A DNA stretch of 64,000 bases, from contig SCOI01000007.1 in NCBI GenBank assembly GCA_005503085.1, positions 1-64,000 on the forward strand, written 5' to 3'. The notes under the pieces were generated by a model. That model had not been told where the DNA came from and made no database searches. It was given only the letters and a program-made list of their open reading frames with translations. Both the position numbers and the translations under genes were made by a program. Positions 1,052-26,918 of the stretch are shown here, piece by piece. Position 1 is the first letter of the stretch. The number at the start of each line of letters is the position of its first letter. The DNA comes from Burkholderiales bacterium C2 (lineage in GTDB: Bacteria > Pseudomonadota > Gammaproteobacteria > Burkholderiales > Burkholderiaceae_C).

Positions 1052-1102
1052 GCGCGCGGCACCCCCAAATCAATCGGCGCCGGGGCGCTGGCAAGCCGGC
1101 CA

Positions 1103-1121
1103 GGCCAGGCCAGTCCTGGCC
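1103..1121. terminator. possible hairpin between convergent genes
   Basis: A perfect 7-bp stem, GGCCAGG and CCTGGCC, with a 5-base loop lies between the convergent exonuclease and methyltransferase genes. It has no T-tract on either side, so a terminator role is only positional inference. Confidence 0.25.
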
Positions 1122-1145
1122 AGGGCACGACTTGGGTGACCGGCC

Positions 1146-1979: not shown

Positions 1980-2020
1980 GGTGGGGTACTCCAGGTGAAA
2001 TGGGAGGGTGCCGCGACGGC

Positions 2021-3360: not shown

Positions 3361-4205
3361 CTTTCGCTCCTGATGTCGGATGTGCGGGAATCGGCCCGCA
3401 CGCCGCTTGCGACCACAAAACTGCCCGGCAGGCGATAGCCCGCGCCATCGCACCAGCGGGCGATCGAAGCCAGGTATTCCGCCTGCACGGCTTCGCGCGT
3501 GCGGCGCTCGAAGCGGGCATAGGCCAGGGCCACCGGACCGCCCGCCAGGACGGCGTCGCAGGCCGAGCGGGCCCCGGCATAGCGGAGCCAGGCATCGACG
3601 CGGCGGCTGCACACGGCGGCGAAGCCGGTCCGCCGCAGCGCCTGCGTCAGGGCCGTGCCGGTGCCCAGGCGGAAGAACAGCGGGCACACCTCGGAGCGGA
3701 CCCGCCGGTCGACGATCGGAAAGACCTCGGCCCAGGCGCAGTCGCGTCGCTCGCCCCAGACCGACACCAGCAGCCGCCCGCCCGGCCGCAGGCAGCGCGC
3801 CATCGCGGCCAGCGCGCGCTCGGGATCCGGCATGTACATCAGGCCCAGGCCGCACAGCAGCACGTCGAAGCCGCCCTCGCCCAACTCCTGGTCCAGCGCC
3901 TGCGCGTCCGCCCGCAGCCAGCGCGGCGGCACCAGGCCCGCCTCCGCCACGCGCTGCGCCGCCGCGGCCAGCATCTGCTGCGACAGGTCGCTGGCCACCA
4001 CCTCGCAGCCGGCGCGCAGCGCCGCCAGGGTCAGGGTCCCGGTGCCGCAGGCCACGTCGAGCACGCGCTCGCCCGGCCGCAGGGCGGCCTGCGTCAGCAG
4101 CGTCTCGCTGGCCGGCGCCAGCGCCTGCCGCCAGCCCGGGTCGTAGTGGGCGGCGGCGCGATCCCAGCCATAGCGCTGCACGCGGAGCTGCAGGGCGGTG
4201 TCCAT
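3357..4205 (-). CDS. class I SAM-dependent methyltransferase
   Basis: A 282-residue methyltransferase of the UbiE/Methyltransf_11 type. Motif I is VLDVACGTGTLTLAALRAG (around residue 48), followed by VVASDLSQQML and RADAQALD, and the post-motif LRPGGRLLVSVWGERRDC. Family members methylate quinones, lipids or small metabolites; the substrate here is unknown. Its stop overlaps the start of the haloperoxidase-like gene by 4 bp (ATGA), so the two are translationally coupled and probably act in one pathway. The upstream OsmC-like gene ends 13 bp before its start, extending the same leftward operon. Confidence 0.9.
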   Translation of the reverse strand: MDTALQLRVQRYGWDRAAAHYDPGWRQALAPASETLLTQAALRPGERVLDVACGTGTLTLAALRAGCEVVASDLSQQMLAAAAQRVAEAGLVPPRWLRADAQALDQELGEGGFDVLLCGLGLMYMPDPERALAAMARCLRPGGRLLVSVWGERRDCAWAEVFPIVDRRVRSEVCPLFFRLGTGTALTQALRRTGFAAVCSRRVDAWLRYAGARSACDAVLAGGPVALAYARFERRTREAVQAEYLASIARWCDGAGYRLPGSFVVASGVRADSRTSDIRSER

Positions 4206-4218
4206 GGCTCGGGCGGGT

Positions 4219-4743
4219 TCAGGGGCGCGGGCCGAACACCACCGCGCCGCTCAGCGGCTGGGGGTCGGCGAACACATGCAGATAGGGACTGGCGCTCTGG
4301 GCCTGCTCGATCGCGCGGCGCAGCGCCTCCTGCGGCGCGTCGCTGTCGATGTAGAGGGTGTGGCGCACCCGCAGATAGCCCGGGTAGACGTCGGTGCTGC
4401 CGAGCATGCCGCGGTCGTCGAAGTCCGCCTGCACCTCGACCTCCAGGCTGCGCCAGCAGAGGCCCGCGCGCGCCAGCCAGGCCGTGTAGCCGATGGCCAG
4501 GCAGCCGGCCAGCGCGCCGCGCCCGAGCACGCCCGGCGTGGGGTGCCGGCCGCCGCCGCCGGCCTCGACCGCCATGTCGACGGCCAGGGTCCAGTCGCCT
4601 TCGCGCAGCTCGCAATGCAGCCCGTCCACCACGCGCGCGCGCATCGTGCATTGCGCCTGCGCCTGCGCCTGCGCGGGTTTGCGCTCGAAGGCGGCCTGCA
4701 TGCGGTCCCAGGCGGTGCGGATGCGCTCGGCGGTGCGGTTCAT
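4219..4743 (-). CDS. OsmC-like protein
   Basis: A 174-residue protein with the OsmC/Ohr fold pattern: the helix motif GALAGCLAIGYTAWLARAG with the first conserved Cys, followed by the strand LEVEVQADFDDRG and the C-terminal domain RVRHTLYIDSDAPQEAL. OsmC/Ohr proteins are thiol peroxidases for organic hydroperoxides. The second catalytic Cys, normally in a CPV-like context, is replaced here by Ser (ASPYLHVF), so peroxidase activity is doubtful; it may belong to the OsmC branch with other roles. The N-terminus has an Ala-Gln repeat (AQAQAQAQ). First gene of a leftward cluster with two methyltransferases and a haloperoxidase-like protein. Confidence 0.78.
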   Translation of the reverse strand: MNRTAERIRTAWDRMQAAFERKPAQAQAQAQCTMRARVVDGLHCELREGDWTLAVDMAVEAGGGGRHPTPGVLGRGALAGCLAIGYTAWLARAGLCWRSLEVEVQADFDDRGMLGSTDVYPGYLRVRHTLYIDSDAPQEALRRAIEQAQSASPYLHVFADPQPLSGAVVFGPRP

Positions 4744-4812
4744 GCTCGGCTCCTTTTTTGCGGCCTCGGCGGCCCGGTTCGGCGAGAATGCGCGGCGGGC
4801 GTCAGCCCAGCG

Positions 4813-6788
4813 TCAAGACGGCGTCAAGGGCCGTGCTTCCCGCCAGACGGCCAGCAGCGCCTCGAAGCGCCGCTTGCGCACCCAGACGCGCAACTCCTCC
4901 GGGCTCAGGCACGGGCGGATGTGCCAGGCCTCGCGCAGCGCCGCGAGCGCCGCGGCGCGATGGCCGCGCTCCAGCTCGATCCCGGCCCGCACGATGCGTG
5001 CGGGCCAGAAGCGCGGGTCCGCGCGGCAGGCCGCCTCGGCCGCGCTGGCGGCCTCGTCCAGGCGCTCCAGCCGCTGCAGCGCCCCGCTCAGCAGGGTGTA
5101 CCAGACGGGGCGACGGTAGTCGTCCGGGCTCAGGCGCAACCCGCGCTGCAATTGCTCGATGCCGCGTTCGGTCTCGCCCAGGATCAGCTGGGTGGCGCCC
5201 AGCGCGGCCCAGGCCTGGGATTGCCGGGGTTGGTATCGACCGCCCGCTGGATGAAGGGCAGGGCACGCCGCGGGTCGCCCAGATCGGCCAGTGCGCAGCC
5301 GGCATAGCCGAGCACCTCGGAGTTGCGCGGCTCGAGTTCCAGCGCCTGTTCGGCCTCGGACAGCGCCTCGGCGCGCGCGGCCGCGCCGGGCAGCAGCCCC
5401 ATATTGCCGGCCAGGGCCATCACGATGGCCTTCTGCGCCCGCGCCAGCGCATGCCCGGGATCGACGGCGATGGCATGGCGGTAGAAGTCGAGCGCGGCGC
5501 GCACCGAGTCCTCGGCCCAGCCGCGCGCGAACAGCGCGCTATTGGCATCGCGCACCAGGTCGCGGGCATCGTCGCCCGCGCCGTCGGCATGCTGGCGGCG
5601 CTGCCGGCGCGCCCAGGCCACGCTGACCTGCAGGTCGACCTCGGCGGCCCAGGCCGCGATGCGCTCGTCCAGCAGCCCCGACGCCGGCTGGGCCTCCAGG
5701 TCTTCCTGCAGGCTCCACAGGTACAGCGCGTCCTCGCCGGAGATCAGGTGCAGCGACAGCCGCAGCCGCCCCTCCGGCGTGCGGCGCAGGCCGCCGCCGA
5801 CCAGAAAGCAGGCCTTCAGCAGCTCGGCCATGCGCACGAGGTCGCCGTGCGCCCGCGCCGCCACCGACTGCACCGCGGCCTGGGCCGTGACGGCCAGCTG
5901 CGAATGCCGCGCCAGCGCGGCGCCCAGGTCCTCGGCCACCACGAGGGCCAGGCTTGCCAGCGCCGCCTCCTGCGGCAGCACCGCCAGCGGCAGCACGGCC
6001 AGGGCCAGAGCGCCGCCGCCCGTCGGGCGCCCCTGTGGCTCGTCCGGCGCCGAGGCCCGAAGGGCCGCGCGCAGCGCTGCGGTCTCGGCCTGCGGCGCCG
6101 TGCCGTACTCGCGCCGCAGCACCGTCGCGCAGCGCTCGTACTGGGCCAGCGCCTCGCTGCGCCGGCCGAGCGTCGCCCAGGTCTGCATCAGCAGCCGATG
6201 TGCCAGCTCGTTGCCGGGGTCGAGTTCGAGCCAGCGCTGCAGGCAAGGCACGGCCGCCTCGTGGCGCCCGGCGGCCAGCAGCGTGCGGGCCAGCCGTTCG
6301 AGCGCGGCCCAGGCCAGACGCTCGACGCGGGTCCGCTCGCCGCTCAGCCAGGTCTCGAACCCCTCGCTGATGAGCGCGCCACCCTGCAGCAGCGGGCCGG
6401 CATAGAGCGAGGCGGCCAGCTGCAGCTGCTCCGGATCGGCGGAGCGCGCCGCCGGCTCGAACTGCCACAGGTCGACGCCGACGCAGCGGGGGTCCAGCAT
6501 CACCTGCTCGCCGCCGTTGATCTGCAGCACCGGGCAATCGCGTCGCAGCTCGCTCAGCAGCTGGCGCAGGCTCTGCCGCGCCCGATCCCGTGGCACTTCC
6601 TCCCACAGCAGGCTGCCCAGATACTCCCGCGTCAGGCCGGCGGGGCCGGCGCATCCCAGCAGGCCCAGCAGGGCTTGTGCCTTGGGGGATGCGGCGGCCG
6701 TTGCGGCATCGCTTGCGAGCCGACAGGAGCCCAGGAGCCTCAGTTGCCACATCGGCGGATTGTGGGGCGACGGATCCCCTTCTGTCAT
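4813..6788 (-). pseudogene. BTAD/SARP-type transcriptional regulator with TPRs, frameshifted
   Basis: A cytoplasmic DNA-binding activator of the AfsR/DnrI/SARP type, about 658 residues when corrected. The N-terminus has the winged-helix DNA-binding domain (WQLRLLGSCRL...TREYLGSLLWEEVPRDRARQSLRQLLSELRR), then the bacterial transcriptional activation domain (residues about 100-245, TPR-like), a central region resembling the TolB/FlgO-like part of CadC-type regulators, and C-terminal TPRs. The frame breaks at the GGG at 5217-5219: adding one base joins DTNPGNP to QAWAALGATQLILGETERG, and the rest continues to the stop at 4813. ATG 6788 was chosen (AGGG just upstream); ATG 6752 is possible. It lies upstream of the OsmC/methyltransferase/haloperoxidase genes and may control them. 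Confidence 0.8.
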
Positions 6789-6837
6789 GTCCCTGACTTT
6801 GCCGCCCGGCGCGGCGACGACCTCTGGCGGCGCAGGC

Positions 6838-7971
6838 TCAGACCGCCCCGATCAGGCCGGCGACCTGCTCGTCGGACAGCCGCATCGGCAGCGCCTGCAC
6901 CGGCAGCAGGGCCGCCACCGCATGCTCGCCGCGCGCGCTGTCGCGCAGCACCGGGCTCAGGCGCGGCTCGCCGGCGCCATTGATCAGCACCGCCACGCGC
7001 GGTTGATGCGCTTTCTCACCATTGCCCACCACCAGGCCCAGCTCGCCCGAGGCGAGGCGGACCACGCTGCCCGGCGGGAAGATGCCGAAGGCCTTGATCA
7101 ACGCGCCGGCCAGCGGGCTGGCGTCGGCCATCTGATGCAGCTCGCGGCCGGCCTGCTGGGCGCTCATCGCGGGGCGGTTGGCGCGGCTGGACAGGCGGGC
7201 CGTGTAGACATCGGCAAAGCGCAGCATCTCGGCCAGCTCGCTGATATCGGTCGCGCCGTTCGGGTAGCCGGAGCCATCGGCCAGCTCATGGTGCTTGAGC
7301 ACGGCCTCGATCCAGTCGGTGTCGGTGATGCCGGCCTCGCTGAGCATCTCGGCGCTGCGGGCCGGGTGTTCGTTGATGGCCTCGCGCTGCTTGGCCGTCA
7401 GCGGCGAGACCTGGGTCGAGAGCCGGGCTTGCAGATCGATCATCGCCACATTCATCGTCAGCGCGGCCTGGAAGGCGCGGCGCTGCTCGGCCACGGTCCA
7501 GCCCAGATAGCGCGCCGCCGCCTGGCAGGCGGTGGCGGCGTGGATCGAGTGGCTGACGCCGTAATGGCCGGCGCCGGCCTCGGGCTGGCGCACCACCTGG
7601 GACAGGGCCACATCGGGCGAGCACTCGATCAGCGACAGCAGCAGATCGGTGGTGCTGTGGATGGCGCCCGCCAACTGTGCGATGGGCGCACCGAGCGCCT
7701 GCCTGACATCGCGGCTGCCACGGTCCCAGTCGGCCGGCAGCCGTGCCAGCCGCTGCGCCGGCGTCTCGCGCCGCGAGGGCTGCACCGCCTCGGCCAGCTC
7801 CTGGACCTCGACCAGCGCGCCGCGCTCGAACAGCTCCTGCAGCTGCGCCTCGTCGCGTATCACCTGCCCCCGTGCCAGCAGCAGCATGCGGCTGGCATCG
7901 CGCACGCTGAACGGCAGCGGTTGGCCGAGCACGATGCGGTTCTTGACGGAAGAGAGCGAGCAGACGCGCAT
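6838..7971 (-). CDS. HD-GYP-like domain protein with a degenerate HD motif
   Basis: A 377-residue cytoplasmic protein. The C-terminal half has the HD-GYP layout: SHSIHAATACQ (residues 140-150), an EHPARSAEML helix (about 201-210), KHHELADGSGYP (226-237, the GYP motif) and LAEMLRFADVYTARLS. HD-GYP enzymes hydrolyse cyclic-di-GMP using a bimetal site. Here the usual HDIGK stretch reads TMNVAMIDL (about 172-180), so the defining His-Asp pair is missing and the protein is probably a c-di-GMP binder or inactive adaptor rather than a phosphodiesterase. The start at 7971 was preferred to an upstream in-frame ATG because the upstream extension is low-quality coding sequence. Confidence 0.82.
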   Translation of the reverse strand: MRVCSLSSVKNRIVLGQPLPFSVRDASRMLLLARGQVIRDEAQLQELFERGALVEVQELAEAVQPSRRETPAQRLARLPADWDRGSRDVRQALGAPIAQLAGAIHSTTDLLLSLIECSPDVALSQVVRQPEAGAGHYGVSHSIHAATACQAAARYLGWTVAEQRRAFQAALTMNVAMIDLQARLSTQVSPLTAKQREAINEHPARSAEMLSEAGITDTDWIEAVLKHHELADGSGYPNGATDISELAEMLRFADVYTARLSSRANRPAMSAQQAGRELHQMADASPLAGALIKAFGIFPPGSVVRLASGELGLVVGNGEKAHQPRVAVLINGAGEPRLSPVLRDSARGEHAVAALLPVQALPMRLSDEQVAGLIGAV

Positions 7972-7990
7972 GGAGGTGTGGACAAAGCAA

Positions 7991-8010
7991 GGCCCGCCGG
8001 GATGCGGGCC
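7991..8010 (-). terminator. probable Rho-independent terminator of the S8/PAP2/cyclase operon
   Basis: On the minus strand, GGCCCGC and GCGGGCC pair perfectly around a 6-base loop and are followed by TTGCTTTG, a loose T-rich tail. It lies 70 bp past the stop of the subtilase gene and just ahead of the HD-GYP-like gene. A second perfect hairpin (GCTGAGT/ACTCAGC, 8028-8044) lies between it and the subtilase stop. Confidence 0.45.
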
Positions 8011-8080
8011 TGCCGGACTGTATATCGGCTGAGTGCAACTCAGCTTGAGGGCACATGCCGGCCTGTCTTGACCGGCAAAA

Positions 8081-9916
8081 TTATGGACGCACCACGAGCG
8101 GCTCCGCCGTGATCGGACTGCGCATGCTGGCAAGCCAGGCGCGGCGATCTCCGAGATTGACGAATCGTGTTGCGCCCATGTTGTTGACCAGCCGTCGAGC
8201 AAGCACGGGTGCCGCGACGCTCGTGCCCGCCATAGGCACCAGGGTGTCGCTGCACACGCCTGTTGCATAGAGACCACCAAAGGTCGTGCCCTCTTCTGAT
8301 GCGCCATAAGCATCGACGCCGCGTCGCCAGCGCCAGTCAGGTGTCAAGCTGCCGCCCGGCGAGTAGGTCGCCAGGGCATCGCTGCGCAGACAGGCTGCGC
8401 CCACCACGACAACGCCTGCCGAGGTCGCCAGATCGCTGAGAGCGCCGTCGCCGAAAATGCTGAAGCCTCGGTCGCTCGAGGTTTCCAATCTGGATTGAGG
8501 TTCACCCGACGTCGTTTGCCTAGGGTCATCACGCTGGATCCATGCATCCAGCATGACCTGTTCTTCCGAGGATTGATTGCGCAGCCGGAGCGTCCAAAGC
8601 CCAGCGTTGCTCTGCGTTGCCGGGCCCAGCCCTGCAACCGTGGACAGGATCATCATGTCCTGCCCGACCGACTTTGGCCCACCTGCTTCAAAGGCGGCCA
8701 AGCAAACCTCCGTCGGCACATTGGGGATGGCTGGCAGGCACGCATGCTGTCCGCTTGTCAGGGGCCCCAGACAACGGAGCCCATCCGGCGCAATCAGTTC
8801 GACATCGAGTTGGCTGGGTGCTCCGCCGTGAGTGCAGCGCCCCCATAGCTCAAGGAAGCTGTCGGTCGGGTCTCCGTGCGCGATCCGCCAGCCCAGTTCC
8901 AGTTGACTGCCTGGAGTCAAAGTGGCGCGTGCATGCAGGCGCTCGCCGCGCGCATTGCCAGCCGCGACTGTGATCAGCAAACGCGGCGTCTCCTTCAGAA
9001 TCTCGTCCAGGGCAAGCTCCAGCAGTGAACTGCCGTCATGCGGTCCGGCCAACGCCCCAATGCTGATATTGATCAGCACGGGAGCATCGGGGTCAGCTTT
9101 AGCGAGGATGTAGTGAACGGCATCGATCAGGTAGGCCCCACTGGATGCACCGGTGACATCGCCAATCTTCGGTCTCGGCACATCAACGAACACCAAGTCG
9201 CACTGCTGCGCCAAGTCCGGGCGGGATGGCTTGGCACTCAAGGCGGGTGCAGGTGCTCTCACCACACCGGCGAGAGTGTCGAGCACATGCGTGCCGTGCG
9301 CGCTCTGCTGCAAGAATGCGCCTCCCTGTTGCATCAGGTACTGAGCCAGCCGATAGCTCGCAGCCTCATCGTTGCTGGCAATTTGTTCATTGATCGCCGC
9401 ACCGTCCAGTTCTCCGCCATAGCCAAATTCAGGTGGTACAGGCCAGCCGACGGCTGCGGGCAAGTCTTGGCGCCACAAACCCAATAGGCGAGTTTTGCTC
9501 GGGTCGTCTGGGTTGCGAAAGGCGGTGTTGAGGTAGGCACAGTCGTTGTCGATAACTCCGATTACCGGACGCAGCGACTGCGTACGCGGCGGTGGGGGCG
9601 ATCCTGTTGCTTGAGCGGCCCACGCGACAGGGGGCCTATCAATGGGCAGGGCCATCATCATTGAATCGACCGAGTCCTGCAGCTGACCAATGTCGTGGAT
9701 GGCCGCCCATACAGTCATGAAGGGACCGGTCGACCGGACATGATGGGGTGAGACAAAGAAGGACTTGCCAAGAGCGGCGCGCTGCGCTTCGGACACTCGC
9801 ACCAGGAACGGAATCAACAGTGCCGCACCATGGCGCTGGCAGGCTGCATGACCGGAAAACTGGGTCAGATGACTCCACTGCAGATAGGGGTCGGGATAGA
9901 GATTGGTGCTTGCCAT
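8081..9916 (-). CDS. S8 family (subtilisin-like) serine peptidase, cytoplasmic
   Basis: A 611-residue peptidase with a complete subtilisin triad: Asp123 (GVIDNDCAYLN), His207 (SAHGTHVLD) and Ser566 (MAGTSVAAP), with the oxyanion Asn321 (TVAAGNARG). About 150 residues separate Asn321 from the final domain (roughly 340-460), giving an inserted beta-rich region (ELWGRCTHGG...LRLRNQSSEEQ) typical of larger S8 subtilases. No signal peptide or membrane segment is present (MASTNLYPDPYLQWSHL), so it should act inside the cell. The ATG at 9916 has a good RBS (GGAAG) and lies 13 bp after the PAP2 gene stop; it is the last gene of the cyclase-PAP2-S8 operon. GC content is lower than in the flanks. Confidence 0.92.
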   Translation of the reverse strand: MASTNLYPDPYLQWSHLTQFSGHAACQRHGAALLIPFLVRVSEAQRAALGKSFFVSPHHVRSTGPFMTVWAAIHDIGQLQDSVDSMMMALPIDRPPVAWAAQATGSPPPPRTQSLRPVIGVIDNDCAYLNTAFRNPDDPSKTRLLGLWRQDLPAAVGWPVPPEFGYGGELDGAAINEQIASNDEAASYRLAQYLMQQGGAFLQQSAHGTHVLDTLAGVVRAPAPALSAKPSRPDLAQQCDLVFVDVPRPKIGDVTGASSGAYLIDAVHYILAKADPDAPVLINISIGALAGPHDGSSLLELALDEILKETPRLLITVAAGNARGERLHARATLTPGSQLELGWRIAHGDPTDSFLELWGRCTHGGAPSQLDVELIAPDGLRCLGPLTSGQHACLPAIPNVPTEVCLAAFEAGGPKSVGQDMMILSTVAGLGPATQSNAGLWTLRLRNQSSEEQVMLDAWIQRDDPRQTTSGEPQSRLETSSDRGFSIFGDGALSDLATSAGVVVVGAACLRSDALATYSPGGSLTPDWRWRRGVDAYGASEEGTTFGGLYATGVCSDTLVPMAGTSVAAPVLARRLVNNMGATRFVNLGDRRAWLASMRSPITAEPLVVRP

Positions 9917-9929
9917 GGTCGGCTTCCGT

Positions 9930-11063
9930 TCAGGACCATTCGCTCTTGGCTTGCTCCCACAGATCGCACCAAACCGGGAAGGACACAGCTGCATCGGCGA
10001 CATCAACTGGGCTGAGCGAAACCAAGGGTGCTGCCTCGTTGAATGAGGCCGTCGCTCCGGCCGCGCTGCCCGTCAGCGCAGTGGCAGGGAATGAACCGGC
10101 GCCCCAGGAATCGGCCTGCCCCGCTGTAGCGAGCAGGTAGCTTGACAGCACGTCGCCAAGCTGCCGGCCGGCTTCAAGATCGACGGGGAAATGCAGACCT
10201 GCGATCGCGCGATTCTCGGCAATTCGGAAGGCCAAGCGGCGGAGATAGTTCCTCACATGAGTGGGCGGCGCCATGTCACCGAGGAGATGGCCCAATAGTG
10301 CCGCAGTGACATGCGCCTCGACGGCATGCCCTGCCGGAAATGCCGGGTGCCGTGGCACTTCCAGAAGCGGCTGGACGGTGACCGAGTACTCGCTCGGTCT
10401 TGGGCAAGCCAAGGTGTGCTTGAAGTACATGCAGATCGCATAGCTGAACTGCAAGGCCAGTTGCAGGGCTTCCAGTGTGTGACGATGCCGGCCGGTTTGC
10501 AGATTCATGATGGATGCAAAGTAGGCCAGCGGAGGTGCTACCTGGGTCAATATCTCGGGGGCCCGGCTGTCACGTGCACTCACCATGGCATCCATCAACT
10601 GCAACTGGCCTTCGAAGAACCCGCGATCAGGCCGGTTCATCGTGAAAAGCGGATAGACCTGACCGTTGAAGTCGGTGGCCTGGACCTGAGCCTGATGGCC
10701 GTTGCGGTCGAACGCCACCGAGCCGAGCAGTTCGCTCATGATGAGAGCTGCTCGCACCGCAGGACCATGGCGGCGCGCACTGCTTGCCTGAGATAGGGGT
10801 GGGAGGGATGACCATGCCGAACCTCGGTCACCAGCACCGCCCAAGGTGACCGGCCTCTGTCCACGCAGAATTTCGGTTCGCGTCGCCAGCAGCGCAGCCG
10901 TCAACATCCCATTGCCGGGGAAGCCATCGAACCCGTAGGCTTCCATACTGTTGCTGTAGGCGTAGGCATTACTACCCGTATAGGCGTTGGTGCCCGTGTA
11001 GGCGTAGGCATTGTTCCCCGTGTAGGCGAACGGACCAACTGTTGAGAAAGCTCCTGTGGACAT
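9930..11063 (-). CDS. soluble PAP2/vanadium-haloperoxidase-fold phosphatase with Tyr/Asn/Gly repeats
   Basis: A 377-residue protein with all three PAP2 motifs: K215-x6-R222-P223 (KHTLACPRP), P-A-G-H at 243-246 (FPAGH) and R285-x5-H291-x3-D295 (RAIAGLHFPVD). The family contains acid phosphatases, lipid phosphate phosphatases and vanadium haloperoxidases. There is no signal peptide and no clear set of membrane helices, so it looks soluble and closer to the haloperoxidase/bacterial acid phosphatase branch. Residues 12-38 are a low-complexity repeat of AYTGxNAY units. It starts 30 bp after the cyclase gene stop and ends 13 bp before the subtilase start, so the three genes form one operon. Confidence 0.88.
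   Translation of the reverse strand: MSTGAFSTVGPFAYTGNNAYAYTGTNAYTGSNAYAYSNSMEAYGFDGFPGNGMLTAALLATRTEILRGQRPVTLGGAGDRGSAWSSLPPLSQASSARRHGPAVRAALIMSELLGSVAFDRNGHQAQVQATDFNGQVYPLFTMNRPDRGFFEGQLQLMDAMVSARDSRAPEILTQVAPPLAYFASIMNLQTGRHRHTLEALQLALQFSYAICMYFKHTLACPRPSEYSVTVQPLLEVPRHPAFPAGHAVEAHVTAALLGHLLGDMAPPTHVRNYLRRLAFRIAENRAIAGLHFPVDLEAGRQLGDVLSSYLLATAGQADSWGAGSFPATALTGSAAGATASFNEAAPLVSLSPVDVADAAVSFPVWCDLWEQAKSEWS
10950..11030 (-). repeat. in-frame repeat coding AYTGxNAY units
   Basis: The DNA coding residues 12-38 of the PAP2 protein holds imperfect repeats of about 18-24 bp (on the plus strand, variants of GTAGGCGTAGGCATT and GCCCGTGTAGGC). They encode FAYTGNNA, YAYTGTNA, YTGSNA and YAYSNS. 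Lengths are multiples of three, so copy number can change without breaking the frame. Confidence 0.75.
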
Positions 11064-11093
11064 GGCGTGCTCCGACGGTAAAGGAGGGGCTGA

Positions 11094-12917
11094 CTAGCGC
11101 TGCGGTAGGCCGGCTTGCCTCAAGGCTTGGGCGCAGCGGTTTGCAAATGCGGTTCCTCGGCCGGGATAGTTTCTTTCGAAAGCATCTACCGAGTAGCGTG
11201 GATCTATCGCAAGCAAGCCCTGGACCGACAGCTTGGCGGCGTCGACATCGCCCTGTAGCAACTGCGCAATGGCAAGCGTGCGATAGGTCGGCATATGCCG
11301 CCGGTTCAGTCGCAAAGACAACTCAGCGGTGCTGACGGACTCCGCCAGTTGGTTGGCGGACAGCATTGCATGAGCTGAAAAAGTCTCGAAGAAATACCGC
11401 ATCGGATCCAGCGGAGACAACTTGATGGCCTGCCTAGCGGCGTCGACGGCAGCTGCGCCTTGATCGCGATAGGCGTACAAGGCCGACATGAACAGCCACG
11501 CCAAGGGTTCGCTGGAGTTGGCAGCGAGGGCCTCGGTATAGCGCTGCTCCGCTCTCTCAAGATCTTTATCAATCAACGCGGCGACCAAGCCATCGATGGA
11601 CAGAGCCAGAGGATGCGATGGGTACAGCCTCAACGCACTCTGGGTTCGTTGGTGTGCAAGCCTGACCTCGATGTCAGGAGCGGTTGTCCAAGCCTGAACC
11701 AGACTCATGACGTGCCACTTTGCCTGCCAGGCGAGGACGTCCGGCGATCGGGGGTGCCGGTACAGCAACTTCTCAAGGCAGGCATGTGAGCGCTGAAAGT
11801 CCTGGGCCGTCGAGTGGTGCATCAAGGCGATGGCGCTGAATAGAAGCACATGCGAGTCCACCGCATCCAGTCCGAGACCACGGCTTTGTTCGACGGCATT
11901 TGCGAAAAGCACGCGAGCGACGTCCTGTGCAACTTTGTTCCCCACTGGATTTGCGTCGGACAGAATTTGTGCCTGTTCGATTTCCATGCTGTCGGCCCAC
12001 ATGAGTGACCCGGTATGCACATCGGTCAACTCAAGACTGATAAGAACGGTTGATCCCCGCATGAAGCATTTTCCGGAAATGACATAGCGGGCGTCGAACA
12101 TCGTTCTCAGGCCTTGAAGGTCCACCCGACGTCCTCGCAGTGCTGCCGCAGACAGTTGCGATATGACCCGCCAAGCAGCGCAGCGTGAGAGGGCGCGTGT
12201 GATCTCGTCAGCGATGAGATCCCCAAACAGGGCGCCATGCGAACCCGGTGTCAGTGTGGTGAAGGGCAACACCAAAATGACCGACCTGGTATCAGGCGGG
12301 GGCTCGAATGCAGGCATTGCGGCATCATTCGCGCTGCTGCTCAGCGCGAAGCACTGGCGCGGCGCATCAAGGTGTTTGAAGTACTTCTCGCCGAGGTCCT
12401 CGACACGGGCATCCAACTCATGGACCAGGGCATCACGGATCTCGGCGGAAACGACAAACGTTCCAGGTTCAGCGCTGGCGGCAAACCTTGCGGCCAAATT
12501 GACTCCCGATCCATAGACGTCATAGCGATCAATACTCACGGCGCCGACATGCGCACCAATGCGTAGTAAAAGTGCCTGGCTCGCGGATTTGCCCTGGTTG
12601 ATCAATGGCAAGCGACGTTGGAGTTCAAATGTCGCTTTGACGGCGCTCAACACCTCATCGAACTCCAGCAACATCCCGTCGCCAAGACTCTTCACCATGC
12701 GCCCCTGATGGGCGGGCAAGACCTGACTCCGGACCTCATGCACGAACCGCCGCCAGCGGTCGATGACATCGGCCTCGTTGGCCTGCATCAAGCGCACTGA
12801 TTCGACGACATCCACCACCACAATGGTTTTGGTGGCTCGAACCAGTTCGGGCCAACCCTCTCCCTGTGAGTCGGTGGTGCTCATCGTGACCGCACAATCT
12901 GTTACCTTCATCCCCAT
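11094..12917 (-). CDS. class III adenylate/guanylate cyclase with TolB-like and TPR domains
   Basis: A 607-residue cytoplasmic protein. The N-terminal class III cyclase domain (about 28-195) keeps metal-binding Asp36 (VVVDVVESV) and Asp80 (SLGDG), the purine-contact Lys76 and the transition-state pair Asn140/Arg144 (VNLAAR); the second purine-specifying position is Ser in YGSGVN rather than Asp. Residues about 210-325 resemble the TolB/FlgO-like domain found in such cyclases (ILVLPFTTLTPGSHGALFGDLIADEI), and the rest is TPR-rich. It is the first gene of the operon with the PAP2 and S8 proteins. ATG 12917 is used; ATG 12911 and 12884 are also possible, as no RBS is clear. Confidence 0.88.
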   Translation of the reverse strand: MGMKVTDCAVTMSTTDSQGEGWPELVRATKTIVVVDVVESVRLMQANEADVIDRWRRFVHEVRSQVLPAHQGRMVKSLGDGMLLEFDEVLSAVKATFELQRRLPLINQGKSASQALLLRIGAHVGAVSIDRYDVYGSGVNLAARFAASAEPGTFVVSAEIRDALVHELDARVEDLGEKYFKHLDAPRQCFALSSSANDAAMPAFEPPPDTRSVILVLPFTTLTPGSHGALFGDLIADEITRALSRCAAWRVISQLSAAALRGRRVDLQGLRTMFDARYVISGKCFMRGSTVLISLELTDVHTGSLMWADSMEIEQAQILSDANPVGNKVAQDVARVLFANAVEQSRGLGLDAVDSHVLLFSAIALMHHSTAQDFQRSHACLEKLLYRHPRSPDVLAWQAKWHVMSLVQAWTTAPDIEVRLAHQRTQSALRLYPSHPLALSIDGLVAALIDKDLERAEQRYTEALAANSSEPLAWLFMSALYAYRDQGAAAVDAARQAIKLSPLDPMRYFFETFSAHAMLSANQLAESVSTAELSLRLNRRHMPTYRTLAIAQLLQGDVDAAKLSVQGLLAIDPRYSVDAFERNYPGRGTAFANRCAQALRQAGLPQR

Positions 12918-12977
12918 TCTGGGGGACGGGTGTTCGGGTCGGGCAGGGGTTTGCGAGAACCTAGTTCTAGGGAAGGG

Positions 12978-13415
12978 TCAGGTCTTTCCCTGCCCATGGC
13001 AGGCACAGGCCTCGCCATGGGCGGCCGCCACCAGCTCTTCCAGGATGCCGCAGCCATGGGCGTCGTGATCGGCGTCGCAGCGCGCCTTCAATGCCACCAG
13101 CTGCTTCTCCAGCGCCTGCATGCTGGCCAGGCGTGCCCGCACCTTGGCCAGTTGCGCCTCGACCAGGCCATCGACACTGGCGAGCTGGGCCGGGTCCTGG
13201 CTGTGCACGCTGGCCAGCAGCAGGGTCACATCGGCCAGCGACATGTCCAGCGCCCGGCAGTGGCGGATGAAGGCCAGGCGCTCCAGATGTGGCTGCGCAT
13301 AGTCGCGGTAGCCGTTGGCGCTGCGCGCCGGGCCGGGCAGCAGGCCGCTCTTCTCGTAGAAGCGGATGGTCTCGATATCGACCCCGGTGGCCTGGCTGAG
13401 TGCTCCGATGCGCAT
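12978..13415 (-). CDS. MerR family regulator, Cd(II)/Pb(II)-responsive type
   Basis: A 145-residue regulator. The N-terminal winged helix reads MRIGALSQATGVDIETIRFYEKSGLLP, then GYRDYAQPHLERLAFIRHCRALDMSL and a long dimerisation helix. The C-terminus matches the CadR/PbrR type: Cys113 (ARCDADHDAHGCG) and Cys122, followed by a tail with Cys137, Cys139 and His140. The first metal-ligand Cys of classic CadR/PbrR (near 77) is not present, so metal choice is uncertain. ATG 13415 has a good RBS (AAAGGA). No metal efflux gene is next to it; the divergent gene is a cyclase-ATPase. Confidence 0.88.
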   Translation of the reverse strand: MRIGALSQATGVDIETIRFYEKSGLLPGPARSANGYRDYAQPHLERLAFIRHCRALDMSLADVTLLLASVHSQDPAQLASVDGLVEAQLAKVRARLASMQALEKQLVALKARCDADHDAHGCGILEELVAAAHGEACACHGQGKT

Positions 13416-13449
13416 GGCGGCTGGTCCTTTCGCAGCCAGCATAGCGTGA

Positions 13450-13466
13450 CTGTGGAGCCGCTACAG
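13450..13466. promoter_or_regulatory. possible MerR-type operator
   Basis: An imperfect dyad, CTGTGGAGCCGCTACAG, resembles MerR-family operators that lie in the long spacer of a promoter. It sits 35 bp upstream of the MerR gene start, in the right place for autoregulation, but the -35 and -10 elements around it are weak. Confidence 0.35.
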
Positions 13467-13586
13467 GCTTGCCGGCCAGTCCTTTTGGGGCCAGGTCGAT
13501 AAAGACGGGGACAGGATTGGCGGAACAACGGGTGCCGGGTCGCGCCATCCGCCTCTAAACTCGGCCGCTGCATCGAGGGTCCGAGC

Positions 13587-13667
13587 ATGAGTCTGTGCAA
13601 CCGACATCGAACCGCGGCAACCGCCACATCACACACCCGGCCGGGCCGCAAGGCTCTGGGCTCATGA
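13587..13667 (+). CDS. possible 26-residue upstream ORF coupled to the cyclase gene
   Basis: ATG at 13587 has a fair RBS (GAGGG, 8 bases upstream) and opens a 26-codon frame, beginning MSLCNRHRTAATATSHT, whose TGA (13665-13667) overlaps the ATG of the cyclase-ATPase gene at 13664. The ATGA overlap suggests translational coupling. The peptide is Arg/His/Thr-rich and resembles nothing I recognise. The overlap could be chance. Confidence 0.3.
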   Translation: MSLCNRHRTAATATSHTRPGRKALGS

Positions 13668-16600
13668 GCGGCCCAGCGGCCGGGCCGCCCCAGTCACTGC
13701 AGGCGCTGCAGGCGGCCATCGCGACGCTGGAGTCGCAGCGCGCCTTGCTGGGCGATGCCGTCGTTGATGTCGCGGTGGCCGGCCTGCAGGTTCAAGCACA
13801 GGCCTTGCAGGCTGCCGGCTCCGAGTCGACGCAGAGCCAGGCGCTGCGCCTGGTCAGCATCCTGTTCCTGGATGTGGTGGGTTCCACCGCGCTGGGCCAG
13901 CAGCTCGACCCGGAAGAGATCCATGCGGTGATGGATGGCGCGATGGCACGCTTCACCGGTGTGGTGCAGGCTCATGGCGGCCGTGTCCTGCAGTACGCGG
14001 GCGACAACCTGCTGGCCGGCTTCGGCGCCGACGAGGTGCGGGAAGACGATGCCGAGCGTGCCCTGCGCTGCGGTCTGGCGCTGCTGGCCGCCGGCCGCAG
14101 CGTGGCGCAGCAGGTGCAACAGGCGCACGGTCATCAGGGCTTTGATGTGCGGGTCGGCATTCATTCCGGCCAGGTGCTGCTGGGCGGTGGTGTCGATGCC
14201 GAGGGCACGATACGCGGCAGCGCGGTCAATATTGCCGCGCGCATGGAGCAGTGCGCGCCGCCCGGGGGGCTGCTGATCAGCCTGGACACCTACCGGCTGG
14301 TGCAGGACCGCTTCGATGTGCAGCAGGGCCAGGCCTTGCACATCAAGGGCGTCGACGCGCCGATGCTCACCTTTCGGGTCGAGCGCGAGCGCCCGCGCAG
14401 CGCGCAGCAGCTGCGGCATGGCCTGGATGCCGTCAACGCCGGCCTGGTGGGGCGCGACGCCGATCTGGCAGAGATGCGGGCCGCGCTGGCCGCCGTGCAG
14501 ACCGGGCGGACCCAGCGGCAAATCACCGTCATCGGCGATGCCGGTCTGGGCAAGACGCGCCTGCTGGCCGAGTTCGAGGCCGGCCTGTCGACCCCGGGCG
14601 GCGGCCCCTTGCACGCCAGTGCCCATCCGCAGGGGCTGCATCAGCCCTACGGCGTGATCCGGGATCTGCTGTTCCGCTGTTTCGATGTGCAGGACAGCGA
14701 CCCCTTGGCGCTGGCCCAGGCCAAGCTGGCTGACGGCCTGGCGCCGCTGTTCGGCGAGCGGGCCGATGAACAGACCGCGCTGCTGGGCCAGCTGATCGGG
14801 CTGGACTACCGGGCCAGCCCCTTCATCGCCGGCATCCTGCAGGATGGTCGGCAGCTGCGGGCGCGCGCCCTGCATGCCTGGATCGAGTTTCTGCGCCTGT
14901 CCTGCGCGCGGCTGCCGCCGCCTGCCGTGCTGGTGCTGATGCTGGACGATCTGCACTGGGCCGATGAGGGCTCGCTCGATGCCATCGAGCAGCTGTGCGC
15001 CCTCGGTGGCGAGCTGCCGCTGCTGCTGCTGTGCGCCGCACGGCCCGAGCTGCTGGAGCGGCGGCCCGGCTGGGCTGAGGCCTGGCCGGCGTGCACCCGC
15101 CTGGCGCTGGCACCGCTGGATCTGACGGACCGCCAGACGCTGGCGCGCTCCCTGCTGCGCCAGCTGGGTGAGCCGGCGGGCGCCGCCGCACAGCAGCTGC
15201 AAACGCTGCTGATCGAGCGCACCGACGGCAACCCCTTCCATATGGAGGCGCTGCTGCAGATGCTGGTGGACCAGGGCGAGCTGGACATCTCCGCCACGCC
15301 TTGGCGGCTCGCCGCCGGAGGCCTGCAGCGCCTGCAAGTGCCCACCACGCTGGTGGGCGTGCTGCAGGCCCGGCTCGATGCGCTGCTGGTGCCGCAGCGG
15401 CGCGCGTTGCAGCAGGCCAGCGTGATCGGCGCCGTGTTCTGGGACGAGGCCCTGGCCGCGCTCGACGGCCATGCACCGGCAGCGCTGGGCGCGCTGAGCC
15501 AGCGCGGGCTGGTGTTGCCTCAGGACGGTGGCGCCTTCGCCGATGCGATGGAATTTGCCTTTCGGCACCATCTGCTGCATGACGTCACCTACGGCACGGT
15601 GCTCAAGCATGACCGGCGCGAGCAACACCGCTGCGCCGCGCTGTGGCTGGAGGCGCGCAGCGCGGGGCGCGGGGCGGAGTTCGCCGGCCTGATCGCCGAG
15701 CATTTCGAGCGCGCCGGCCTCCCCGACCGTGCCGCCGAACACTGGGCCCGGGCGGCCCAGGAAGCGGTCGCCCGCCATGCCGACAGCGCGGCGCTGGCCC
15801 ATGCCTGCCGCGCGCTGGCGCTGGATGCCGGCGCTGACCCGCAGCGGCGCTTCGCGATGCTGCGCGTGTGCACCCATGCGTGGTCGCGCCGCGGCGATGA
15901 GGCCGAGTATGAGCAGGCCGTCGCGGCGCTGGAAGCCGAGGCGGACGAACAGGATGACGCGGTGCTGCGCCTGACTGCCGCGCAGCACCGCATGCACCGC
16001 CTGTGCCAGAACGGCGACTACGAGCAGGCCCATGCCCTGGGCCTGAGCCGCCTGGCTGCGGCCGGTGAGCGGGCTCCGGCCGAGGCGGCCAAGGTGCACA
16101 GCACCTTGATCATGGCGCTGGGCCGGCAGGGTCGCCATGAGGAGGCGCGCCTGCATGCGCAGGCCGCGTTGACCCTCGCGCGTGCCTGCGAAGACAGCTA
16201 TACCGAGGCCTCCGTGCTGAACAATCTGAGCGTCGGCTATGCGGCCGAACGCCTTTTTCAGCAAGCTTTCGCCAGTGGCGAGCAGGCGCTGGCCAAATAC
16301 CGGAGCATCGGCAGCCGCTACGGCGAGGCCATCGCCTTGCTGAATCTGGCCTTCGCCGCCCAGCAGTGCGGCCTGGTGGAACAGTCCCGCGAGCAGCTGT
16401 GCCAGCTGCTGCAGCTCTGCGATGCCATTGATCACCGGCAGATCGGTGCGCAGGCGCGCTGCAATCTGGCCGGCGTGCTGGTCGAACTGGGGCAGGCGCC
16501 GCAAGCGCTGGACCATGCGCTCGATGGCATCCGCATGGCAGAGGGCATCGGCGACCGCTACATCCAATGCACCGGTCATGACGCCGCTTTTCAGGCTTGC

Positions 16601-16990
16601 TATCTGCTGGGTCGATGGCGCGAGGCCGTCGAGCATGGCCGGCTGGCGCAGGCCGGCCTGGCGGCCAGCGGCGAGCCGGCGCAAGCGCTGGCCTGCGAAG
16701 CCGGCGTCGCCTGCGCCTTGCAGCAGGCCGGTGACGACAGCGGCGCACGGGCCGGTGTCGAGGCCGTGCTGGCCGCGGTGGCCGGCCGCGGCGGCTGGCA
16801 GGACGACGAGGCGGACGCCGCCATCTGGTGCGCCCGCGTGCTGGCGCTGCAGCAGGACCCGCGATCCACCGCGACCCTGGCCGCCGCCCGACGCGGGCTG
16901 ATCGCGCAGGCGGCGATCTTCGAGGATCCGGTCGAACGTGCGCAGTTCCTGCAAGGGACGGCCCTGCGCCGCGAGCTGCAGCTGACCTGA
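13664..16990 (+). CDS. class III cyclase - AAA ATPase - TPR signalling protein
   Basis: A giant 1108-residue cytoplasmic protein of the cyclase/AAA_16/TPR type. The cyclase domain (about 60-240) keeps Asp70 (LFLDVVGST), Asp114 (YAGDN) and Asn189/Arg193 (VNIAAR), but the purine-contact Lys is Gln110 (VLQYAGD). An AAA/STAND ATPase follows, with Walker A at 290-298 (IGDAGLGKT) and Walker B near VLVLMLDDLHWAD. The C-terminal 450 residues are helical repeats of the TPR type. The start at 13664 is preferred to a GTG at 13595. It is followed after 76 bp by a second cyclase-ATPase gene. Confidence 0.88.
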   Translation: MSGPAAGPPQSLQALQAAIATLESQRALLGDAVVDVAVAGLQVQAQALQAAGSESTQSQALRLVSILFLDVVGSTALGQQLDPEEIHAVMDGAMARFTGVVQAHGGRVLQYAGDNLLAGFGADEVREDDAERALRCGLALLAAGRSVAQQVQQAHGHQGFDVRVGIHSGQVLLGGGVDAEGTIRGSAVNIAARMEQCAPPGGLLISLDTYRLVQDRFDVQQGQALHIKGVDAPMLTFRVERERPRSAQQLRHGLDAVNAGLVGRDADLAEMRAALAAVQTGRTQRQITVIGDAGLGKTRLLAEFEAGLSTPGGGPLHASAHPQGLHQPYGVIRDLLFRCFDVQDSDPLALAQAKLADGLAPLFGERADEQTALLGQLIGLDYRASPFIAGILQDGRQLRARALHAWIEFLRLSCARLPPPAVLVLMLDDLHWADEGSLDAIEQLCALGGELPLLLLCAARPELLERRPGWAEAWPACTRLALAPLDLTDRQTLARSLLRQLGEPAGAAAQQLQTLLIERTDGNPFHMEALLQMLVDQGELDISATPWRLAAGGLQRLQVPTTLVGVLQARLDALLVPQRRALQQASVIGAVFWDEALAALDGHAPAALGALSQRGLVLPQDGGAFADAMEFAFRHHLLHDVTYGTVLKHDRREQHRCAALWLEARSAGRGAEFAGLIAEHFERAGLPDRAAEHWARAAQEAVARHADSAALAHACRALALDAGADPQRRFAMLRVCTHAWSRRGDEAEYEQAVAALEAEADEQDDAVLRLTAAQHRMHRLCQNGDYEQAHALGLSRLAAAGERAPAEAAKVHSTLIMALGRQGRHEEARLHAQAALTLARACEDSYTEASVLNNLSVGYAAERLFQQAFASGEQALAKYRSIGSRYGEAIALLNLAFAAQQCGLVEQSREQLCQLLQLCDAIDHRQIGAQARCNLAGVLVELGQAPQALDHALDGIRMAEGIGDRYIQCTGHDAAFQACYLLGRWREAVEHGRLAQAGLAASGEPAQALACEAGVACALQQAGDDSGARAGVEAVLAAVAGRGGWQDDEADAAIWCARVLALQQDPRSTATLAAARRGLIAQAAIFEDPVERAQFLQGTALRRELQLT

Positions 16991-17066
16991 CGCGGCCGTT
17001 CACGCCCCGATGCCGCGAGTAAGTCCGGCATTGGCCGGACTCCTTTCTGTGGCATCGTCCCGGCCT

Positions 17067-25541: not shown

Positions 25542-26207
25542 ATGAATGCAATCGACTTGGCCACCGTTTCCGCTGTTTCCACCGTTTCGCGCAGCACGGC
25601 CGTTCCCGAGCGCCGCCGCGCCGCCTCGCTGAGCAGCCACTGGCTCGGCCTGGTGCTGGAGGAGCTGGACTATGGTGTGCTGCTGCTGAACCAGCGCGGC
25701 GAGCTGCTGCACAGCAACCGCGCGGCCCGTCTGGCGATGGATGCGCGGCATCCGTTGCAGCTGCTGGGCGGCCAGCTGCGGGCGCGCTGCGCCAAGGATG
25801 TCAAACCGCTGTTCGAGGCCCTGGCCCATGCCGAGCGTGAGGGCCGGCGCTGCCTGCTGCGCCTGGGCGAGGGGGCCGAGCAGGCCAATGTGGTGGTGGT
25901 GCCGCTGAACCGCGATGTCGAGCAGGCGGCGGTGCTGCTGGTGCTGGAGCGGCGCGAGCTCTGCGGTGCGCTGGCGGCGCAGTGGTTCGCGCTGCGTTAT
26001 GGCCTGACCCCGGCCGAGACCGAGGTGCTGAAGGCGCTCAGCGACGGCGCCGAGCCCAGCAGCGTGGCCCAGGCCCAGGGCGTGGCGATCTCGACCGTGC
26101 GCACCCAGATCCAGAGCATCCGGGCCAAGTCCGGTGCGCCCAGCATCCGCGAGCTCTTGCGCCAGCTGGCGGTGCTGCCGCCGCTGATGTCGGCGCTGTA
26201 CAACTGA
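25542..26207 (+). CDS. LuxR-type HTH transcriptional regulator
   Basis: A 221-residue regulator. A PAS-like N-terminal half (LGLVLEELDYGVLLLNQRGELLHSNRAARLAM) senses an unknown signal; the C-terminal 60 residues form a GerE-type helix-turn-helix (LTPAETEVLKALSDGAEPSSVAQAQGVAISTVRTQIQSI). The ATG at 25542 has RBS GGGAG. It is 106 bp downstream of the MBL gene and just before the Crp/Fnr-type gene. Confidence 0.88.
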   Translation: MNAIDLATVSAVSTVSRSTAVPERRRAASLSSHWLGLVLEELDYGVLLLNQRGELLHSNRAARLAMDARHPLQLLGGQLRARCAKDVKPLFEALAHAEREGRRCLLRLGEGAEQANVVVVPLNRDVEQAAVLLVLERRELCGALAAQWFALRYGLTPAETEVLKALSDGAEPSSVAQAQGVAISTVRTQIQSIRAKSGAPSIRELLRQLAVLPPLMSALYN

Positions 26208-26261: not shown

Positions 26262-26918
26262 GTGCCACGCACGCCGCGCCGCATGGATAGCAGCACCGTT
26301 CTCGCGCAGATCTTCGAGCCCGCGCTGGCCGATCTGCCGCCCGCGCTGGCGGCACTGGCCGCGCGCGGCGTGGTGCGCAGCTACCGTCGCGGCACCGTGC
26401 TGATCGAGGAAGGCACGCAGGGGGACAGCCTCTACCTGGTGCTGTCGGGCCGCTTGCGGGCCTATGGCTGCGATGCCCGCGGCCGCGAGATCACCTACAG
26501 CGTCTACGGCGTCGGCGACTATGTCGGCGAGATGAGCCTGGACGGCGGGCCGCGCGCGGCCAGCGTCATCACCGAGGAAACCAGCCGCTGCGTGCTGCTG
26601 ACGCGCGAGAGCATCCTGGCTCATATCGCCGCGCATCCCGAGTTCGCGCTGGAACTGCTGAGCAAGGTGATACGCCTGGCCCGCGCCGCGACGCTGTCGG
26701 CCAAGCAGATGGCGCTGCATGATGTCTATGGCCGGCTCAAGGCCCTGCTGGAGAGCGGGCCCCAGGAGCGGCTGACCCACCAGGCGATGGCGCAGCGCCT
26801 GGGCTGCTCGCGCGAGATGGTCTCCAAGCTGATGAAGGACCTGGAGCTGGGCGGCTATCTGGTGCGCAGCTCGGCCGGGCGCTACGAGCTGCGCAAGGCG
26901 CTGCCGGCGCGCTGGTGA
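26262..26918 (+). CDS. Crp/Fnr family transcriptional regulator
   Basis: A 218-residue regulator with a cyclic nucleotide-binding-type sensor domain (LIEEGTQGDSLYLVLSGRLRAYGCDARGREITYSVYGVGDYVGEMSLDGGPRAAS) and a C-terminal Crp-type winged helix (RLTHQAMAQRLGCSREMVSKLMKDLELGGYL). The RAAS stretch is near the cAMP phosphate-binding cassette, but the usual Ser/Thr ligand set is not full. The start is uncertain: GTG 26262 is well placed after AGGAGG (26247-26252), ATG 26283 is the alternative. It ends 17 bp before a convergent M48 peptidase gene. Confidence 0.9.
   Translation: MPRTPRRMDSSTVLAQIFEPALADLPPALAALAARGVVRSYRRGTVLIEEGTQGDSLYLVLSGRLRAYGCDARGREITYSVYGVGDYVGEMSLDGGPRAASVITEETSRCVLLTRESILAHIAAHPEFALELLSKVIRLARAATLSAKQMALHDVYGRLKALLESGPQERLTHQAMAQRLGCSREMVSKLMKDLELGGYLVRSSAGRYELRKALPARW

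Follow-up and report, generated by a model that had tools for sequence, protein, structure and literature searches.

We analysed a 64,000-nucleotide stretch of the genome of Burkholderiales bacterium C2 (contig SCOI01000007.1, positions 1 to 64,000; the window in what follows) and report that three genes on its minus strand form a conserved operon. The first (gene 1) encodes a class III cyclase with a TPR-like body, the second a soluble PAP2 phosphatase with a repetitive N-terminal tail, and the third a subtilase whose modelled fold is that of the clostridial Csp proteases. The genes lie head to tail from 12917 to 8081, and the open reading frames (ORFs) on the minus strand bear out the single direction and the gaps of 30 and 13 bp given in the initial annotation of this DNA. 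The trio is real and conserved far beyond chance, since 103 of 112 distinct loci keep the order gene 1, PAP2, protease on a single strand; homologues that rarely sit together, which the initial annotation had named as evidence against such a unit, are not what is found. Three features go beyond that annotation: a family-wide tandem array in the PAP2 protein, a replaceable cyclase domain in gene 1 and the Csp type of the protease. Our preferred reading, to which we give a probability of about one in three, is that of an accessory sensor module in which the sensor would control a zymogen-like protease acting on the tailed phosphatase. The features of the operon in the window are as follows:

11094..12917, minus strand: gene 1, class III cyclase with a C-terminal TPR-like sensor body, 607 aa (Pfam, key residues)
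12381..12827, minus strand: cyclase catalytic domain of gene 1, putatively an interchangeable output, residues 31–179 (Pfam Guanylate_cyc, 32.5 bits)
9930..11063, minus strand: gene 2, soluble PAP2 phosphatase with an N-terminal repeat tail, 377 aa (Pfam, AlphaFold model)
10950..11027, minus strand: N-terminal tandem array of the PAP2 protein, imperfect AYTGxNAY type, residues 13–38 (disordered in the model)
10146..10460, minus strand: PAP2 catalytic domain, residues 202–306 (Pfam PAP2)
8081..9916, minus strand: gene 3, predicted Csp-type subtilase, 611 aa, ATG start (Pfam, fold matches)
9650..9817, minus strand: subtilisin-prodomain-like N-terminal domain of the protease, residues 34–89, limits approximate (order of secondary structure in the model)
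8417..8938, minus strand: strand-rich insertion of the protease between N321 and S566, residues 327–500, limits approximate, likely counterpart of the Csp jellyroll

All three catalytic domains score above the curated Pfam cut-offs (Guanylate_cyc 32.5 bits, PAP2 34.8 bits, Peptidase_S8 31.2 bits), which also bears out the PAP2 assignment of the initial annotation. Inspection by eye shows none of the three proteins to have a hydrophobic signal peptide, as had been noted before.

Distribution of the operon

With the PAP2 protein as query, a sample of 299 genomes from the family of the window gave 93 with a match at E 0.001, of which 44 have a strong one (E below 1e-19). Of the 42 best foreign places in this sample we retrieved 40, leaving out two that lie on short contigs; a scan of public genomes gave at least 578 PAP2-related stretches, from which 80 named loci were taken. 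Removal of eight duplicates reduced the 120 loci to 112. Seven of the exceptions to the gene order lie at contig ends (L037, L083, L084, L127, L132, L137 and L150) and two have a divergent regulator (L118 and L143). The protease gene comes directly after the PAP2 gene in 109 loci, and the remaining three (L083, L084 and L150) stop at contig edges. Pairwise sequence distances over 98 loci correlate between the genes, with r 0.85 for PAP2 against protease, 0.84 for PAP2 against gene 1 and 0.70 for protease against gene 1.

The trio is carried by many bacteria of soil and water. Among the matches listed, its family is found in Burkholderiales and several alphaproteobacterial groups, with Bradyrhizobium, Methylobacterium, Microvirga, Kiloniella and Rhodobacteraceae among its carriers, and the named loci belong to Pseudomonadota plus one Planctomycetaceae metagenome-assembled genome. 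Based on tree path, the nearest PAP2 relatives of the window are those of Paucibacter, Rubrivivax and Piscinibacter. The PAP2 protein also matches 35 plasmids, 21 of them from Phaeobacter; nine of these 21 records were opened and seven of the nine are typed as conjugative. On the Parasedimentitalea plasmid pW43B (L190, 4270–7393) the PAP2 and protease genes are both broken into several frames, and intact relatives of these broken genes are found on Phaeobacter plasmids. The phage records searched with the PAP2 protein gave no match; three viral contigs (L178–L180) contain weak PAP2 relatives which have a different N-terminus and no trio partners by profile. Other effectors beside this protease were considered and rejected: its relatives in L153–L160 are distant, with no PAP2, gene 1, CRP or LuxR profile match nearby, and L161–L163 are trio-type proteases at contig ends. 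No description of the trio or its parts was found in the open-access literature searched, in line with the earlier statement that no such system has been described.

The trio is accessory in this genus, because it is absent from the same-genus genome G077 (no PAP2 match at E 0.001 and no protease-profile match at E 1e-25). Window positions 6845–8010 match G077 at 89% and positions 12934–17470, a flank of 4.6 kb, at 91%; the two counterparts share a contig, at a distance of about 94 kb. In the window, what separates the two stretches is the block 8011–12933, which is bounded by two synteny breaks and holds just the trio. The transfer that had been suspected from the low GC content is thus supported for the window, where the GC content of the trio is 60.6% against 70.4% in the remaining window (10 points below the flank). 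As a general mark of the trio, low GC is not supported: the mean difference between trio and flank is −0.4 points over 98 loci, and it is below −5 points in only 8.

The N-terminal array of the PAP2 protein

The initial annotation had called the PAP2 protein repeat-tailed; the repeat exists, and its position is corrected here to the N-terminus. A tandem array of at least three copies is found there in 104 of the 112 loci (111 of 120 before removal of duplicates). The eight loci without such an array comprise three which are cut by contig ends (L127, L132 and L137), four with imperfect or short repeats (L033, L037, L074 and L076) and one which is masked (L122). Arrays similar to that of the window are found in the Rubrivivax loci L073 and L075. 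The unit is three residues long in 72 arrays, four in 20, six in 8, and five, seven or eight in four, and the median array is 28 residues long, with 8.4 copies. Across the 104 arrays we count 57 units (e.g. GGA, SGGY, TGT and GIGRTA), and the unit is a different one in nearly every species; Gly makes up 46% of the unit residues, Ala 18% and Ser 9%, and six units have no Gly.

At the peptide level, 97 of the 104 arrays are perfect. The codon agreement between units has a median of 1.0 at positions 1 and 2 and of 0.29 at position 3. With random codon choice from the same operon as the reference, which could be applied to 96 of the 112 loci (the rest lack genes, copies or clean letters), identical successive codons are fewer than expected in 74 of the 96 arrays (718 seen against 953 expected in total), and 20 of these 74 deviate downward by more than 2 standard deviations. 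Eight arrays have more identical codons by more than 2 standard deviations and look recently expanded. The GC content of third codon positions is 0.59 in the arrays and 0.77 in the operon. Arrays which are mostly perfect as peptides and scrambled in their codons argue that selection acts on the peptide; old arrays are so kept periodic as protein, and their DNA drifts apart or is held apart. Recent slippage of the DNA as the only origin of the arrays is ruled out by the deficit of identical codons in the same 74 arrays.

Proteins with AAPAKK arrays, which we take to be histone-like, are encoded upstream of the trio in L063, L102, L107, L128, L129 and L146; they are similarly scrambled, and therefore codon scrambling alone is not unique to the PAP2 arrays. 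That the array recurs elsewhere in its locus was considered and rejected: besides these proteins, most matches are the array DNA itself read in antisense or in a shifted frame. In the ORFs of gene 1 and of the protease that were checked, perfect arrays are present only in gene 1 of L040 (RGPM) and in the protease of L064 (LH), both near the 5′ end of the ORF, which may precede the true start.

Concerning the turnover of the units, a tree of 99 PAP2 sequences requires at least 66 changes of unit (floor 54, 55 labels), and therefore the majority of units have a single origin or very few; for the unit length, the minimum is 11 changes. The loci L049 and L128 are 94% identical in DNA over the 400 bp after the array, yet the unit is SGGI in one and SGGL in the other; since their identity is only 51% upstream and 75% in the cyclase, recombination near the array is possible. 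Nine Phaeobacter plasmid loci (seven of P. inhibens, one of P. piscinae and one of P. gallaeciensis) contain the unit NSF in 5, 6 or 7 copies, and their six-copy arrays differ by one synonymous base.

The phosphatase core and the protease

The PAP2 superfamily is characterised by the motifs KX6RP, PSGH and SRX5HX3D. In a structure alignment of 66 PAP2 sequences (window included) of the 112 loci, K215, R222, H246, R285, H291 and D295 are kept in 66/66, as are the motif residues K, RP, P, H, R, H and D; the window protein has PAGH for PSGH and NR for SR. The AlphaFold model has a predicted local distance difference test score (pLDDT) of 84, which falls under 50 for residues 1–46, as expected for disorder. 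Class A acid phosphatases are exported enzymes with a signal peptide. They provide the closest fold among the matches listed (Z 18.8, 2.1 Å, 197 aligned), and the non-specific members PhoN (PDB 2a96) and 7f17 share the soluble PAP2 fold (Z 18 to 19) and all catalytic residues, whereas the trio PAP2 has no signal peptide visible by eye, a fixed protease partner and about 100 extra N-terminal residues including the tandem array. The array itself forms its N-terminus, with no hydrophobic stretch by eye. The fold of the vanadium haloperoxidases, enzymes of vanadate-dependent halide oxidation, matches at Z 12 to 14, below the acid phosphatases.

The triad of the protease is intact in the window (D123, H207 and S566), as the initial annotation had it. 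Over the 54 sequences of a structure alignment (window included, of 109 loci), the Asp is kept in 53/54 and the His, the Ser and the oxyanion Asn in 54/54. The model has a pLDDT of 85, and its closest matches among those listed are the clostridial Csp proteins (CspB, E 1e-26). The alignment with CspC–CspA has Z 31.0 and 3.1 Å with 468 aligned of 551, and that with CspB has Z 28.6 and 2.6 Å with 403 aligned of 464. The CspC–CspA alignment starts at residue 34, and therefore the prodomain and the central insertion are both within the matched range; the jellyroll-like insertion is supported at model level by this full-length alignment and was not searched alone. The likeness in sequence is weak (CspBA model 33.9 bits against a cut-off of 1250; CspB E 1.2e-4). 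At the level of the model, the protease thus matches the Csp type, prodomain and central insertion included.

The Csp germination proteases (CspB, PDB 4i0w; CspC–CspA, 9pr8) share with the trio protease the full-length fold, the prodomain and the central strand-rich insertion, and an intact triad is common to it and CspB. They differ in that identity is about 20% and that the trio protease is found in Proteobacteria with a PAP2 enzyme as its partner; a narrow search of the open-access literature brought up no Csp-type protease from Proteobacteria. Csp proteases keep their prodomain after autoprocessing and act in spores on the cortex hydrolase pro-SleC; CspB-dependent cleavage of SleC removes a propeptide. 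According to passages of PMC3567191, the retained prodomain of CspB occludes its active site, a jellyroll interrupts the protease domain, and SleC cleavage requires CspB activity. Judging from the fold, the trio protease looks self-inhibited in the manner of a zymogen.

Gene 1 and the regulators near the operon

In class III cyclases, two Asp bind metal, a Lys/Asp pair contacts the substrate and an Asn/Arg pair serves the transition state. Gene 1 of the window has all six key residues (D36, K76, D80, D133, N140 and R144; DKDDNR). Of 103 loci, 88 have a cyclase domain that scores at least 60 bits; 84 of these were in the aligned set, and 75 of them retain the full set of six residues. The cyclase of the initial annotation is thereby upheld. 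The TPR part named in it stays below the Pfam cut-off in the window protein (TPR_2, 19.4 bits against 27) and is above it in the relative L115 (TPR_19, 26.9 against 25), and the TolB-like part is not confirmed, with only sub-threshold LpoB-like library matches.

The other 15 loci depart from this in several ways. By inspection, the cyclases of L048, L050, L052, L053, L078, L141 and L142 are degenerate, and DNA-binding-like N-termini are found on the same body in L105, L112, L115, L119, L120 and L131. According to Pfam, L133 contains Trans_reg_C and a remnant cyclase; L107, the last of the 15, is a broken assembly. Gene 1 of Phaeobacter and Parasedimentitalea contains Trans_reg_C. The DNA-binding label of the six loci and of the regulators in L118 and L143 is based on sequence likeness to SARP-type regulators, and in L115 and L118, the two of these that were scanned with Pfam, TPR is the only match. 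These sequences point to gene 1 as a regulator whose output domain can be exchanged. Class III cyclases with a C-terminal TPR share with it the cyclase motifs and the TPR-like body; gene 1 differs from them by its place in one conserved operon and by a cyclase domain which can be replaced by DNA-binding domains.

Two regulator genes of the window have relatives near the trio in other genomes:

26286..26918, plus strand: CRP-type cyclic-nucleotide-binding regulator, a relative of the CRP near the trio elsewhere, with a putative role in the module
25542..26207, plus strand: LuxR-type regulator, the usual neighbour of that CRP gene (GerE below the Pfam cut-off)

A CRP-type gene is near 43 of the 112 loci (30 of 44 such ORFs are convergent, just after the protease gene) and a LuxR-type gene near 39; a profile search that includes weak matches gives 48 and 43, respectively. 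In the family sample, 37 of the 44 genomes whose PAP2 match is strong have the CRP gene, against 70 of the 255 others (Fisher p 1e-12, kinship ignored). In the Piscinibacter loci L033 and L076, the trio sits between the CRP and LuxR genes and not beside the pair.

Comparison with defence systems

The likeness to defence modules suggested in the initial annotation was not borne out. No PADLOC model matches the trio, and the cyclase has no match up to E 0.1. We scanned 144 of 193 neighbours (148 chosen at random, with four omitted: three short ones and the L118 regulator), among which the commonest families are CRP, M48 peptidase and LuxR. A TIR-type model matches 16 of the 144; the one shown in full is the cyclic nucleotide monophosphate (cNMP) domain of a CRP gene, and the remaining ones probably are as well, because 24 members have cNMP_binding. 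The other defence models have at most 13 matches among the 144, several of them from sister models of one family, in a count without a control set. A defence role is not supported.

Pycsar systems pair a PycC-type cyclase with a toxic cNMP-binding effector. With them the trio shares a cyclic nucleotide enzyme and a cNMP-binding protein nearby, but its cyclase has no match among the PADLOC models, whose coverage of PycC was not checked, and the nearby protein is a CRP-type transcription factor. The NTP-dependent conflict systems of Kaur et al. (2020; PMC7159879) resemble the trio in combining cNMP cyclases with peptidases within an operon; the main text of that paper does not contain the words PAP2 or haloperoxidase, and the trio has no MoxR, vWA or STAND domain by Pfam.

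Neighbouring genes in the window

Positions 1044–6844 are absent in G077, where 106–1043 and 6845–8010 are adjacent. Within this segment, a regulator with a BTAD domain and TPR (5184–6788, minus strand) lies about 1.3 kb from the trio and resembles by eye those beside the trio in L118 and L143. On the other side, 13595–16990 (plus strand) encodes another class III cyclase, which also has AAA and TPR domains, followed at 17010–19877 (plus strand) by a protein with AAA_22, NB-ARC and TPR matches.

Proposed mechanism and alternatives

In the accessory sensor module that we favour, gene 1 would be a soluble sensor with a TPR-like body, and its N-terminal domain would be the output. The output in the window would be of the adenylate-cyclase type, and its cyclic nucleotide would be read by the CRP-type regulator, a chemistry and a link suggested by the conserved residues and by gene linkage. 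Genes 2 and 3 would be the effector pair. The protease may be made as a self-inhibited Csp-type zymogen, to judge from its fold; once the module is switched on, it would be unblocked and would cut the repetitive tail off the PAP2 protein, much as CspB activates pro-SleC. The strict periodicity of the tail may hold the phosphatase assembled or inactive until it is cut.

Several points weigh against this reading. That the protease cuts the PAP2 tail is, like any physiological role of the module, something that we infer, and no cleavage motif between the array and the PAP2 core stands out by eye. Partial Mantel tests over 98 of the 112 loci show no clear partner for the array. The similarity of the units and that of the proteases, given PAP2, have a partial r of −0.16; as unit similarity does not track the protease, this speaks against direct recognition of the unit by the protease, and we count it against our explanation. 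In the family-sample search, the genomes G045 and G278 match the PAP2 protein strongly but not the protease (at E 1e-25); their loci were not fetched. The CRP gene of the window, and likewise the LuxR gene, lies 13 kb from the trio. The linkage to CRP may also be partly an inherited position, because the 70 of 255 genomes mentioned above have the CRP gene without a strong PAP2 match.

The array may instead be a tag for homotypic assembly into fibres, clusters or condensates, with the divergence of units insulating related systems and the protease having other targets, which we consider a tentative possibility. The perfection of 97 of the 104 arrays, their composition (mostly rich in Gly, Ala, Ser and Thr), the 57 units and the disorder in the model are in keeping with such a tag, and four genomes with two systems (G096, G298, Bradyrhizobium Ec3.3 and B. 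algeriense) have differing units; however, only four such genomes were looked at, differing units are near chance given so many types, and it is not obvious by what common chemistry units as different as ASLWPR, NSF and GGA would assemble. We are doubtful of a further proposal, in which the arrays would be a self-specificity code: the peptide would be kept periodic, the codons scrambled so that the DNA is non-repetitive and the unit left free between lineages, and each system would self-assemble and be released by the protease of its own operon under the control of a sensor whose outputs can be exchanged. A regulated operon of phosphatase and protease that serves stress or nutrient use, with the tail as a loosely constrained low-complexity spacer, would agree with the CRP and LuxR genes nearby and with the fold like that of class A acid phosphatases; near-perfect periodicity with randomised third codon positions would be unexpected in a loose spacer, as would its presence in 104 of 112 loci, and we hold this reading to be unlikely.

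Less likely again is an anti-phage or conflict system, in which infection would trigger the cyclase and the protease and phosphatase would be toxins. It would fit the patchy distribution (a strong PAP2 match in 44 of 299 genomes, and absence from the same-genus genome), the plasmids typed as conjugative and a nucleotide-making sensor encoded with enzymes, but there is no PADLOC match, the non-TIR defence matches among the neighbours are few, the output can be a plain DNA-binding domain, and the commonest neighbours are CRP, M48 peptidase and LuxR. The array could also be a precursor from which the subtilase frees many short peptides of one sequence, to be bound by the TPR body of gene 1 in a cytoplasmic peptide feedback, for which the RRNPP-type peptide receptors are the comparison. 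Tandem identical units, diverged codons and lineage-specific sequence resemble pheromone precursors; L049 and L128 differ in the array with 94% identical PAP2 DNA over the 400 bp after it and 75% in the cyclase DNA; and the units have a weak link to the TPR region given PAP2 (r 0.10, p 0.018). This link is one of many Mantel tests, though, most units have three residues and are very short for a specific signal, there is no export signal by eye, and the units have no shared cutting residue; we hold such a feedback to be improbable.

The operon joins a sensor, whose output is a second messenger or DNA binding, to a seemingly self-inhibited protease and a phosphatase, and its function is undescribed in the literature searched. 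The arrays are a rare natural experiment, in which the peptide can be almost any short one but must repeat. They make it testable whether periodicity itself, and not sequence, carries function.

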